A DNA stretch of 38,285 nt from Clostridiaceae bacterium. GTDB taxonomy: Bacteria > Bacillota > Clostridia > Acetivibrionales > DTU013. The notes below the pieces were generated by a model that saw nothing but the letters and a program-made list of their open reading frames with translations, was not told where the DNA came from and searched no databases. The stretch lies in assembly GCA_012519745.1 (NCBI GenBank), contig JAAYPO010000043.1, positions 1-38,285 on the forward strand. The letters are read 5' to 3'. This document shows positions 11,210 through 28,635 of this stretch, in pieces. Within the stretch, counting starts at the first letter, position 1. Each line of letters begins with the position of its first letter. The position numbers and the translations under genes were made by a program.

Positions 11210-11290
11210 TGTATCTGAGTTACTTTTTTTTCTGAATTATTACAGCAAAATTACTATACCATGTCATACGCACTTGGCGGCGGACATTTA

Positions 11291-11299
11291 TGCTATAAT
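11291..11299 (+). promoter_or_regulatory. Extended -10 promoter of sigI-rsgI
   Basis: TGCTATAAT is a perfect extended -10 element. No good -35 lies at the usual distance. Transcription would start near 11306, which excludes the upstream in-frame starts of sigI and favours the ATG at 11364. A SigI-type promoter was not recognised. Confidence 0.55.
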
Positions 11300-11363
11300 C
11301 GTTTCGTACCGCGCAGCGCATATCCATATGTTGCGCAATATAAGCCAGGGAATTGTGGTGACC

Positions 11364-12062
11364 ATGCAGTTTGATGCAATAAATGCCCGACTGGAGGACA
11401 TTCGACACAATAAGGAGGATATCGGAAGGTTTGTAGAGGAGTACAAGCCTTTTATTGCATCCTGCGCCGGAAAGGCGGCAGGAAGGTTCATGAGCTACGG
11501 CACAGATGATGAGCTCAGCATTGCCATGATCGCATTCGTTGAAGCAATCAATTCATTTGACAGTAAAAAGGGAAACTTCTTTACCTTTTCACGCAATGTA
11601 ATAAAAAGAAGGATCATTGACTATTACAGAAGTGAAAAACGCCACAGCAATGTTGTTTCACTGAATCTGTATATGGAGGAAAAGGACGACGAATATGACC
11701 TGAGCAGCGGCGAGGCTGTGCAGCGTCACGCTGATCAGAGGCTTGCGGAGCTAAGGAGGCTTGAGCTTCAGGAGCTTGGCAGGGAGCTGGAGCAATGGAA
11801 AATTACATACCGGGACCTGGCAAGGGTCTCCCCAAAGCACAAGAAAACAAGACTGCAATGTGCAGAGCTGGCGGGCATCATCCTATCAAGACCCGAAATA
11901 CTCCAGCCGATAATGATAAAGAAGTATTTGCCCGTTGCAGAACTGGAAAGAGTATCAGGATTACCCCGGAAATTCATCGAGCGTTTTCGAAAATATGTAA
12001 TAGCAGTAGTTGTGATAGCAATAGGGGACTATGAATACATAAAGGATTACATAAAATTGTAG
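11364..12062 (+). CDS. sigI: RNA polymerase sigma factor SigI
   Basis: SigI is a sigma-70 family factor for heat or cell-envelope/polysaccharide stress, held inactive at the membrane by RsgI. The 232-residue product has a sigma region 2 near residues 50-110 (SYGTDDELSIAMIAFVEAI, then FTFSRNVIKRRIIDYYR) and the SigI-specific C-terminal helical domain ending VSGLPRKFIERFRKYVIAVV. ATG 11364 follows GTGGTGA. GTG 11355 or 11358 are alternatives, and longer in-frame starts precede the predicted transcription start. The gap to rsgI is only 11 bp, so the sigma and anti-sigma genes are co-transcribed. Confidence 0.93.
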   Translation: MQFDAINARLEDIRHNKEDIGRFVEEYKPFIASCAGKAAGRFMSYGTDDELSIAMIAFVEAINSFDSKKGNFFTFSRNVIKRRIIDYYRSEKRHSNVVSLNLYMEEKDDEYDLSSGEAVQRHADQRLAELRRLELQELGRELEQWKITYRDLARVSPKHKKTRLQCAELAGIILSRPEILQPIMIKKYLPVAELERVSGLPRKFIERFRKYVIAVVVIAIGDYEYIKDYIKL

Positions 12063-12073
12063 GAAGGGAGGGC

Positions 12074-13687
12074 TTGAAGGTGAAAGGAATAGTTGCAGAG
12101 ATAAAGGGTAAATATGCAGTGATACTTACACAGGATGGTCTGTTTAAAAAGGTCAGAGCCCTTCCCGGAATGACGGTGGGTATGGAGACGGAGCTTGAGC
12201 GGTTGTCGGGAGATACCGGCAACAGACGGTTTGCCGCCAGAGTCGTATCGATGGCAGCAGCCGGCCTGCTTGTCCTTGGAGTTGGATTTGGGGCATACAG
12301 CTATACCATACCGTACAGTTATGTAGATATCGATATTAATCCAAGTATTGAGCTCGCTGTAAATATATATGACAGGATAATCGATACGAAGGCTTTGAAT
12401 GAGGATGGAGAAAAGCTCCTTATGAACAAGGACCTGCGGCATAAAAGCCTTGACAATGGAGTCAGGGATCTTCTGAACAGGGCTGTTGAGCAGGGCTATC
12501 TCACAACAGAGAATGAAATCATAGATGACACCGGGGCTCAAGATGGGTATGACCAGCCTGCAGAAAACAGCGGTCAGGTCTCCGGAGACGGCAGCCAGAC
12601 TTCGGACAGTGGTGTCCATGAGGCCGGAAACGATCATCTGCTGCCCGGCTGGGAAAAGGGTACGGCAGAGCAGATGGCTGGGCACACCGATGCAGCCGGA
12701 ATACCGAAGGATACAGCAGGAGCCGGAAAAGAGCCTGCCATCAAAAATGCGGTAATGGTTACCGTGTCAAGCAATAATTCAAAGAAATCCGGTGAATTGA
12801 AGAAAAAAATCGCAAGCACTGCATCAAAGGAGCTGGGCAAAGAGAAGGTCAGCTCTGAGATATTGGTCGGTGAGACCAGCAATGAGCAAAGGGAAGCTGC
12901 AAGGGAGCTGGGGGTCACACCCGGAAAACTGTCGCTGATAGAGGATGTTTTAAAGCATCTTCCCGAAAAAGAGCTTGATGATGTTAAGAACACTGCCGTT
13001 AAAGATCTACTTGAGATAGTCAGGATCAATTCAAAGGACGTTAAGCCGGGTAAAGGAGCCCCGGGCAAGAAAGACGACGGCATTGAAACAGGCAGTAAGG
13101 CCAATGACAGCAGCAAGATAAATAACGGCGGTAAAGGAAGCAAGAGCAGCGAGAGCAGCAACAAAATCGAAAGCAAAAACGACAACAGCAAGGGCAATAA
13201 CAAGGGTAACAGCAGTAATAGCAAGAAGGAGTATCCGGAGAACAGCCGTAATAATGCCGGCAAAAATGAAAAAACCGCACCGGGAGTGAAATCCGGTAGG
13301 GATGACAGCGGCGGCAACGGGGAGATCAAATCGCAGAAGGGCAAAACAGAGAGCAGCAGAGACAAAAATGATGCCGGCAATAAGGACAGCAGTAAGGACA
13401 ATAAAAAGAACAGCGGCAATGACCGGAAGGACAACCATAATGATAAAAAGAATGAAATCAACGTAAGGGAAGTGCCCAAAAAGTCCGCCGAGGAACTGAG
13501 GAAAGAACGTGAAAGTCTCAAGGATGAGCTTCTCAGACAAATAGGCAACAGCCGGGAGCAAAGCGGCAAGGACCGCCCGGGACAGGATGCAGGCAAGGAT
13601 AAGAAAGAGGATAAAGGCGGCACAAATAGAAAGGATGACGATAAAAAGAATCAGAACAGCGGTAAAAAGGCCGGTCCACATAAATAG
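12074..13687 (+). CDS. rsgI: Anti-sigma-I factor RsgI with a disordered extracellular tail
   Basis: RsgI binds SigI through its cytoplasmic N-terminal domain and releases it on an external cue. The 537-residue product has the RsgI N-domain (about 1-50, GIVAEIKGKYAVILTQDG), one membrane segment (about 54-76) and the conserved juxtamembrane domain PYSYVDIDINPSIEL. N89-P90 there matches the Asn-Pro site reported for RsgI autoproteolysis. From about residue 325 to the end the sequence is extremely rich in K, S, N, D and G with no recognisable fold. The carbohydrate-binding modules or hydrolases found on cellulolytic RsgI paralogues are absent. The start may be TTG 12074 or GTG 12080; GGGAGGG at 12066-12072 fits GTG better. 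A terminator follows. Confidence 0.9.
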   Translation: MKVKGIVAEIKGKYAVILTQDGLFKKVRALPGMTVGMETELERLSGDTGNRRFAARVVSMAAAGLLVLGVGFGAYSYTIPYSYVDIDINPSIELAVNIYDRIIDTKALNEDGEKLLMNKDLRHKSLDNGVRDLLNRAVEQGYLTTENEIIDDTGAQDGYDQPAENSGQVSGDGSQTSDSGVHEAGNDHLLPGWEKGTAEQMAGHTDAAGIPKDTAGAGKEPAIKNAVMVTVSSNNSKKSGELKKKIASTASKELGKEKVSSEILVGETSNEQREAARELGVTPGKLSLIEDVLKHLPEKELDDVKNTAVKDLLEIVRINSKDVKPGKGAPGKKDDGIETGSKANDSSKINNGGKGSKSSESSNKIESKNDNSKGNNKGNSSNSKKEYPENSRNNAGKNEKTAPGVKSGRDDSGGNGEIKSQKGKTESSRDKNDAGNKDSSKDNKKNSGNDRKDNHNDKKNEINVREVPKKSAEELRKERESLKDELLRQIGNSREQSGKDRPGQDAGKDKKEDKGGTNRKDDDKKNQNSGKKAGPHK

Positions 13688-17844: not shown

Positions 17845-18135
17845 ATGCCAGGAGGAAAAAGGGACAACAGAGGCGGTAGAGATTCATACGACAGGGGCGA
17901 AGGAAAAGGCGGCATGAGGATGAGAAGAGCCAGAAAAAAGGTTTGCTCTTTCTGTGTGGACAAGGTAACCGATATAGATTATAAGGAAGTTGCAAAGCTG
18001 AGGAAGTTCATATCTGAAAGAGGAAAGATACTTCCCAGAAGGATCTCCGGTAACTGTGCAAAGCATCAGCGCCAGCTGACCGTAGCCATCAAGAGGGCCA
18101 GGACCGTAGCATTGCTGCCGTTCACAGCCGAATAG
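17845..18135 (+). CDS. rpsR: 30S ribosomal protein S18, zinc-binding type
   Basis: S18 pairs with S6 on the small-subunit platform. The 96-residue product carries a glycine- and arginine-rich N-terminal extension of about 25 residues before the conserved core, longer than the usual 75-80 residue S18. C34 and C37 (CSFC) with C71 and H74 ([10 protein letters not shown]) form the CxxC...CxxH set of the zinc-containing S18 form. AAAGGAGG at 17827-17834 precedes the ATG. It closes the operon and is followed by a strong terminator. Confidence 0.97.
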
Positions 18136-18152
18136 GAAGATAATGAAAAAAC

Positions 18153-18193
18153 CCCTCGGGACATGCAACAGATCCCGAGGGATTTTATTTTTA
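18153..18193 (+). terminator. Intrinsic terminator after rpsR
   Basis: CCCTCGGGA (18153-18161) pairs perfectly with TCCCGAGGG (18173-18181), followed by ATTTTATTTTTATT. Confidence 0.92.
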
Positions 18194-18242
18194 TTATGTA
18201 TCAGGAATGACTTGACTGCCGTTTATCGCTGAAGAAATGCGG

Positions 18243-18427
18243 GCAGTAAAACGGCCGGATTTATACAACTTAGTGATCCGGCCGTTACCCTGCTCCCTCG
18301 GAGCAGATTTGGAGGTTGGGATTACTCAACTGCATTCCCTCGTGCTTTCCTTACGGAGGTTACTGGTCCTACGTTAAATCTCCCTTTGGACTCATTCCCT
18401 TCCTGGTAATTATTTTAACAACCATCT
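18243..18427 (-). ncRNA. Candidate structured non-coding RNA, about 185 nt
   Basis: No credible protein is encoded here. On the minus strand a TATAAT at 18439-18434 is followed by a run of paired elements. TTACC (18409-18405) can pair with GGTAA (18289-18285). GTCC (18391-18388) can pair with GGAC (18369-18366). AGATTT (18381-18376) can pair with AAATCT (18310-18305). CTGCTCC and GGAGCAG (18306-18300 and 18296-18290) form a perfect 7-bp hairpin. It ends in an 11-bp perfect stem, 18286-18276 with 18260-18250, then TTTT. The size and layout fit a 6S-like RNA or a raiA-motif-like RNA, but I cannot assign the class. The -35 is weak. Confidence 0.5.
18245..18286 (-). terminator. Minus-strand terminator of the candidate ncRNA
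   Basis: The 11-bp perfect inverted repeat ATCCGGCCGTT (18276-18286) and AACGGCCGGAT (18250-18260) has a 15-nt loop. TTTTA follows on the minus strand only; the plus-strand side continues ACCCTGC, so termination should act on minus-strand transcripts. Confidence 0.65.
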
Positions 18428-18578
18428 GGTTGTATTATATATTTACCCCGTAATTTCTAATATAAACACATGATAGATAACTTTTTTTCTCCATTATTCC
18501 GCAAGCATCATCTGACATGGTTTTTCAGATACAGATAGGAAATATCCTCCTCGCGATAGGGCAGCAGTACGGAGAGGC

Positions 18579-18639: not shown

Positions 18640-18668
18640 GTGGATGAATTTGCAAGTAAGGGTAGCTC
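18640..18668 (+). repeat. Repeat family copy A
   Basis: This copy shares GTGGATGA, a TTTGCA core and TAAGGGTA with copy B. Its first 23 bases are identical to the reverse complement of copy C. If translated, it would read VDEFASKG. Confidence 0.75.
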
Positions 18669-18673
18669 CAAGT

Positions 18674-18709
18674 AATCCTAGTGGATGATTTTGCAGCTAA
18701 GGGTAACTC
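18674..18709 (+). repeat. Repeat family copy B (left inverted end)
   Basis: It starts AATCCTAGTGGATGA and continues to TAAGGGTAACTC. Over 30 bases it matches the reverse complement of copy C at 27 positions, so B and C could be the terminal inverted repeats of a 168-bp element (18674-18841). No flanking target duplication is obvious. Confidence 0.75.
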
Positions 18710-18807
18710 GACGAAGAGTTTTAGAGCATTATTATTGCATATAGTCCATAAATAGAATACATAAATCAGGATATAGAACATTATGTCACCGTAGAATATA
18801 AAGACAC

Positions 18808-18841
18808 ATGCCCTTACTTGCAAATTCATCCACTAGGATTT
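18808..18841 (-). repeat. Repeat family copy C (right inverted end)
   Basis: The plus strand reads CCCTTACTTGCAAATTCATC then CACTAGGATT, the inverse of copies A and B. The A/T-rich stretch between B and C (18710-18807) encodes nothing recognisable. It could be a miniature inverted-repeat element or a relic of an insertion sequence. Confidence 0.75.
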
Positions 18842-18923
18842 TTCGATGCTGCCTTTGCTGAATCTGGGACTGTAAATACGGTCGTGGCATCATCTGTATC
18901 ATGAGGTATCATGTGTTTGGTTC

Positions 18924-19130
18924 AATGGGGCCAGAATTCACGGGGACTTCATGGGGGTTTATGGGAATAGGCTAAATGGGGCAGAATTCACGGGGACTTC
19001 ATGGGGTTTTATGGGGATAGGCTAAATGGGGCCAGAATTCACGGGGACTTCATGGGGGTTTATGGGAATAGGCTAAATGGGGCAGAATTCACGGTGATTT
19101 CATGGGGTTTCACGAAGTCATGGTTTATGG
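18924..19130 (+). repeat. G-rich ~50-bp tandem repeat (minisatellite)
   Basis: Units begin AATGGGG at 18924, 18975, 19025 and 19076, with periods of 51, 50 and 51 bp; the fourth unit decays after about 30 bases. Each unit carries GGGG, ACGGGGAC, ATGGGG(G), ATGGGA and ATAGGC. Units 1 and 3 share small variants absent from unit 2, so a 101-bp dimer has duplicated. Neither 50 nor 101 is a multiple of three, so coding selection is unlikely. Four G-runs per unit could allow G-quadruplex formation. Confidence 0.9.
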
Positions 19131-28457: not shown

Positions 28458-28530
28458 GCCGCACTATGATCGAGTATGCTGAAGCGGACGGGATATTGAC
28501 AATAGATGATGAAAAAGAAAACAGAATATG

Positions 28531-28635
28531 CCTTATCAAGAGTGGTGGAGGGACAAGGCCCGATGAAACCCCGGCAACCGGCCGAACAGGCAGCGGTGCC
28601 AATTCCTGCAGGATTAGATCCTGAAAGATGAGGGA
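28531..28635 (+). promoter_or_regulatory. SAM-I (S-box) riboswitch
   Basis: The S-box core is complete. CCTTATC (28532 onward) pairs with GATGAGG near 28628-28634 as P1. Between them are GGTGGAGGGA, the GATGAAACC segment, CGGCAACC and GGTGCCAATTCC. High S-adenosylmethionine should favour the following terminator and lower metK expression. Confidence 0.95.

Follow-up and report, generated by a model that had tools for sequence, protein, structure and literature searches.

A conserved RNA gene with a putative SigB-type promoter in cellulose-degrading anaerobes and their relatives

SigB-dependent, trans-acting small RNAs are known from Firmicutes, for example RsaA and SbrA of Staphylococcus aureus and Rli47 of Listeria monocytogenes, and base-pairing is the commonest mode of action of trans-acting regulatory RNAs. 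The RNA gene described here lies in a window of 38,285 nucleotides (the whole stretch of DNA analysed) from a Clostridiaceae bacterium. It resembles these RNAs in being a free-standing gene with a putative SigB-type promoter, a predicted terminator of its own and unpaired conserved stretches that may pair with mRNA. It differs in that it has no Rfam match and in that its motifs are purine-rich (GAARGGRMUGA and GGAAAGCAAGAGGA), unlike the C-rich UCCC motifs carried by the Rsa RNAs. We hypothesize that it is probably a SigB-controlled, trans-acting regulatory RNA which pairs with mRNAs via purine-rich single-stranded motifs.

The RNA gene and its distribution

The RNA is located in the gap 18136-18470, between rpsR (17845-18135, plus strand) and pheA (19325, plus strand), with no same-strand gene after it. 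The open reading frame (ORF) listing for the gap contains no frame of at least 80 amino acids spanning the RNA interval and no minus-strand frame of at least 28 amino acids. An unannotated, structured and noncoding minus-strand RNA convergent with rpsR had been proposed in the initial annotation, and homologues, covariation and the lack of long ORFs in the gap bear this out. The features of the locus are as follows.

18244-18438, minus strand: conserved noncoding RNA gene of about 190 nt; 168 bits to covariance model R1, DNA homologues in related genomes, Rfam negative
18440-18467, minus strand: putative SigB-type promoter, GTTTAT-N13-GGGTAAATA (-35 and -10), an exact pattern match just outside the interval initially annotated
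18419-18432, minus strand: P1, 5' hairpin CAACC-AGAU-GGUUG, 5-6 bp, covarying, pairing probability 0.98
18405-18409, minus strand: P2, 5' side UUACC, partner GUAA at 18351-18354, 4 of 5 pairs in the window copy
18388-18402, minus strand: motif 1, GAAGGGAAUGAGUCC, which shows the highest conservation; 17 of 22 loci have it
18366-18391, minus strand: P3, GUCC/GGAC hairpin within P2; a complementary 4-mer follows downstream in 11 of 17 loci, against an expectation of 2.9
18336-18350, minus strand: motif 2, GGAAAGCACGAGGGA, from the alignment (family consensus given above)
18290-18306, minus strand: P5, perfect 6-bp hairpin CUGCUC-CGAGG-GAGCAG, both-side changes at 6 of 6 pairs
18250-18286, minus strand: P6, 11-bp terminator stem AACGGCCGGAU...AUCCGGCCGUU, then UUAC, covarying, 91% of cells paired

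A DNA search returned homologues in 13 of 100 relatives, a few being short matches due to chance, and seven of the DNA-search homologues were used to build covariance model R1. Among 58 genomes of the order of Pseudobacteroides cellulosolvens, the model identified 21 loci of the RNA, spread over 17 genomes from six families; four genomes carry it twice, and the source genome has a single copy. P. cellulosolvens itself is a carrier (contig NZ_LGTC01000001.1). A more sensitive second search of the remaining genomes of the order added no convincing carrier, and neither did a pattern scan of 84,980 species together with a class-wide search for carriers in other orders. Apart from hits within the order, these scans gave terminator-only or coding look-alikes (L077 and L079), one match (L078 in genome G010) has only the 3' half in common with the RNA, and the one match in a viral collection is coding-like and not the RNA. 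Flanking genes vary among families, while the order rpsR-RNA-pheA is retained in most members of the source organism's own family. Because the loci lie in unrelated neighbourhoods, the RNA is a free-standing gene and not the leader of a neighbour, and its presence in 17 of 58 genomes, several of them with two copies, indicates that it acts as its own unit. The existence of a conserved RNA gene is well supported.

Other elements were observed in the window. Between the RNA and pheA, a unit of 50-51 bp is repeated in tandem at 18924-19110 (3.6 copies with 93% matches; a 101-bp double unit can be read as well). A perfect 23-nt inverted repeat (18640-18662/18811-18833) overlaps a 49-nt inverted repeat (78%), and the region 18640-18859, which separates the RNA promoter from pheA, thus resembles a small MITE. 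A SAM-I riboswitch is found at 28530-28634 (90.9 bits), and neighboring ORFs at 11274-13687 resemble, as judged by eye, a SigI-type sigma factor and an RsgI-type anti-sigma partner.

Secondary structure and conserved motifs

The minus strand folds at -60 kcal/mol compared with -48.9 +/- 4.0 kcal/mol for shuffled sequences (z -2.8, better than 200 of 200 shuffles), which by itself is modest evidence for a structured RNA because the terminator stem supplies much of the folding energy. In a 20-member alignment that had been fitted to the model's own structure, 90.4% of cells are paired versus 23-48% with partners slid, and double-change cells number 42 versus 12.5 +/- 3.7 in shuffles. With this alignment as input, RNAalifold predicts both the 5' hairpin and the terminator, again with double changes. 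The 5' hairpin (P1), the hairpin before the 3' end (P5) and the terminator (P6) covary clearly among homologues, and most of their pairs in the window copy have pairing probabilities near 1. P1 has the family form CAAYC/GRUUG, with U-A, C-G and U-G variants and both sides changed at one pair in 7 of 20 sequences. P5 is replaced in the Pseudobacteroides copies. P2 (family form UUACC/GGUAA) is paired in 93% of cells with both-side changes at 4 of 5 pairs; in the window copy it is weak (pairing probability only about 0.1), as is P3 (0.42). A further helix, P4 (GAGG...GUUGA/UCAAC...CCUC), looks good in the source genome (G000) and in G006 but does not extend to the family as a whole; its pairing probability in the window copy is about 0. 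The 11-bp terminator stem initially annotated stands, and the hairpin preceding it is indeed perfect, with 6 bp instead of the 7 bp first counted. As a terminator, P6 is backed by conservation of its stem in homologues, but its T-run is short (UUUUAC) and a terminator scan did not call it on the minus strand.

Motifs 1 (family consensus GAARGGRMUGAGUCC) and 2 are located in the purine-rich middle of the RNA, between the 5' hairpin and the 3' hairpins. G006 and the four nearest relatives within the genus (G001-G004) have lost motif 1, which points either to rapid turnover of targets or to a core of the RNA that lies outside this motif. Orthologues in same-genus relatives (L054, L055, L056 and L008) retain the promoter and the 3' half, whereas their original 5' half has disappeared along with motif 1. 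At the second locus of P. cellulosolvens (L015/L022) the copy ends after motif 1 and comprises only the promoter and 5' part; it looks like a remnant.

The promoter and the SigB system of the source genome

The SigB consensus has been reported as WGWTT-N13-17-(G/T)GGTAWA for Clostridioides difficile (PMC7482061) and as GTTTAA-N15(+/-2)-GGGTAT for Bacillus subtilis (PMC9847131). A relaxed search form of TGTTT-N14/15-GGTAWA, which was derived from the same 22 RNA loci, is found upstream in 21 of them (0.1 expected), and the published C. difficile consensus, which is independent of these loci, fits 10 of the 22 (0.03 expected). The TATAAT initially read as the -10 box occurs in only 8 of the 22 homologous loci, with the SigB-type element just upstream in 21, and a sigma-70 scan found no minus-strand sigma-70 promoter at the RNA. 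Assignment of the promoter to the SigB type is well supported by these pattern matches. Its spacing would place the transcription start a few bases before P1, from which we infer that P1 forms the 5' end of the RNA.

Sigma factors of the SigBFG family score above the curated cut-off in nearly every genome of the order. The source genome encodes clear SigG and SigF proteins (L073 and L074) and a third family member (L072; 244.8 bits, cut-off 234.35), preceded by genes for an anti-sigma antagonist and an RsbW-like kinase (best matches: RsbW and the anti-sigma-antagonist family). For this third sigma factor the SigB equivalog score is slightly higher than that for SigF and well above that for SigG, all below the equivalog cut-offs, and its RsbW-like neighbor likewise does not reach the RsbW equivalog cut-off. 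Judged by these family matches, the source genome encodes RsbV, RsbW and a SigB-like factor. A second gene for an RsbW-like histidine-kinase-type ATPase directly follows the SigB-like gene (L072, 600-1037, minus strand). With regard to SigB autoregulation, a convincing matching promoter is absent at the rsbV-sigB cluster itself.

The exact motif GTTTA-N12-15-GGGTAWA has 8 sites in the source genome versus 2 for a reversed control. Besides the RNA, six sites lie close upstream of ORFs and a seventh lies inside an open frame. Five of the ORFs following the motif encode a flavodiiron protein, an HMA-domain metal-binding protein, a ManC-like transferase, a NusG_II protein and a DUF155 protein, and the sixth is a small ORF that precedes a POR-family oxidoreductase. 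In C. difficile, the flavodiiron genes fdpA and fdpF are SigB-dependent (PMC7482061). In a review, the function of SigB is given as 'not reported' for both C. thermocellum and C. cellulolyticum (PMC7522486), and the literature searched contained no SigB-dependent RNA of this order. The RNA is present in under a third of the genomes of the order and SigB-family factors in nearly all, so that it does not belong to the core of the SigB response.

Mode of action and relation to known RNA classes

A trans-acting regulatory RNA is suggested by the combination of a stress promoter, folded ends, an unpaired middle, a terminator, dispersed loci and an occasional second copy. Under stress, probably oxygen exposure, RsbW would release the SigB-like factor, and the free-standing gene would then be transcribed from its own SigB-type promoter into an RNA of about 190 nt ending at its own hairpin terminator. 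The folded 5' and 3' ends would shield a largely unpaired purine-rich middle with its two conserved motifs. Base-pairing in trans with pyrimidine-rich mRNA stretches is their most likely action, and it would alter translation or stability of the target mRNAs.

Motif 1 also resembles an extended Shine-Dalgarno sequence, and the RNA could be directed at the ribosome, pairing with the 3' tail of 16S rRNA (GGAUCACCUCCUUUCU) and thus holding the 30S subunit under stress. Motif 1 is the strongest predicted 16S-tail pairing site in all 17 loci that contain it (-14 to -19 kcal/mol), but most loci are only 1 to 2 standard deviations better than composition-matched shuffled RNA, and the 16S tail was picked as a target after motif 1 had been seen. 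Further, P3 also accounts for the GUCC of motif 1, and relatives that retain the RNA have lost the motif. We therefore regard a ribosome-directed function as unlikely. A more specific version, in which pairing of motif 1 extends past the anti-Shine-Dalgarno core to the entire 16S 3' tail and the SigB-controlled RNA thereby restrains translation initiation under stress, appears very unlikely; to our knowledge, there is no example of an RNA acting in this way.

Sequestration of a protein was also considered. CsrB/RsmY-type RNAs titrate the translational regulator CsrA through repeated GGA motifs, and the RNA resembles them in carrying several GGA motifs as well as hairpins and a terminator stem. 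Each copy contains 1-7 GGA and several ANGGA sites, the latter totalling 42 versus 26.7 +/- 4.9 expected. However, the count of GGA itself, 85, hardly exceeds the expected 70 +/- 7.6 and shows no clear enrichment, and GGA falls mostly within the two conserved motifs and not in the repeated hairpin loops in which CsrB-like sponges display it, making a sponge for CsrA quite unlikely.

Alternatively, the RNA might be a short mRNA in which motif 1 supplies the ribosome site and the initiation codon for a very small peptide (M-S-P-...). Most loci do contain AAGGG(A)AUG followed by a frame of 5-14 codons beginning M-[SGT]-P, but the spacing from Shine-Dalgarno to start is 0-2 nt and the first codon is CUG in three loci, both of which speak against a micro-ORF beginning at motif 1. 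Frame length is also variable, the frame is absent in the same-genus relatives and, as stated above, the gap has no minus-strand ORF of at least 28 amino acids. A coding function is highly improbable.

A covariance-model search against Rfam 15 gave no 6S, raiA or other Rfam match. Nothing in the gap reached gathering level, no credible match was present in this region of the window at E up to 10, and at E up to 1 the 14 homologous loci searched yielded only microRNA-model matches far below cut-offs, attributable to chance. Sub-threshold His, Leu and L10 leader models fall on the rpsR terminator hairpin and are read as chance, as is a RAGATH-9 match of 14.6 of the 75.2 bits required. 6S RNA (RF00013) is similar in length; its model has no match at the RNA, the 6S gene of the source genome maps to a different contig (G000:C91:42333-42542, 62 bits), and 6S sits at a different locus from the RNA in 8 of 9 genomes examined, the source genome included. 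The raiA motif RNA (ModT, RF03072) is, like the RNA, a structured, intergenic and free-standing RNA of about 200 nt from Clostridia; its model fails to match the RNA, a covariance-model search shows raiA to be absent from the source genome, and genome G051 carries both as separate genes. In C. difficile, raiA is expressed from a SigA promoter (PMC11706538). That the RNA is a divergent 6S or raiA escaping the Rfam models, as its size and multi-helix layout might suggest, is thus the least probable of the explanations and can be set aside. The initial annotation had weighed an abundant housekeeping RNA of the 6S or raiA kind against a new class; the former is unlikely given the restriction to 17 of 58 genomes and the stress-sigma type of the promoter, and the latter is supported.

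The RNA represents a new family, missing from Rfam 15, of a known kind. It comes from cellulose-degrading anaerobes and their relatives, and its promoter would put an RNA inside the clostridial SigB stress response. The promoter motif further provides a testable draft of the SigB regulon in the source genome, one that may include oxygen defence.
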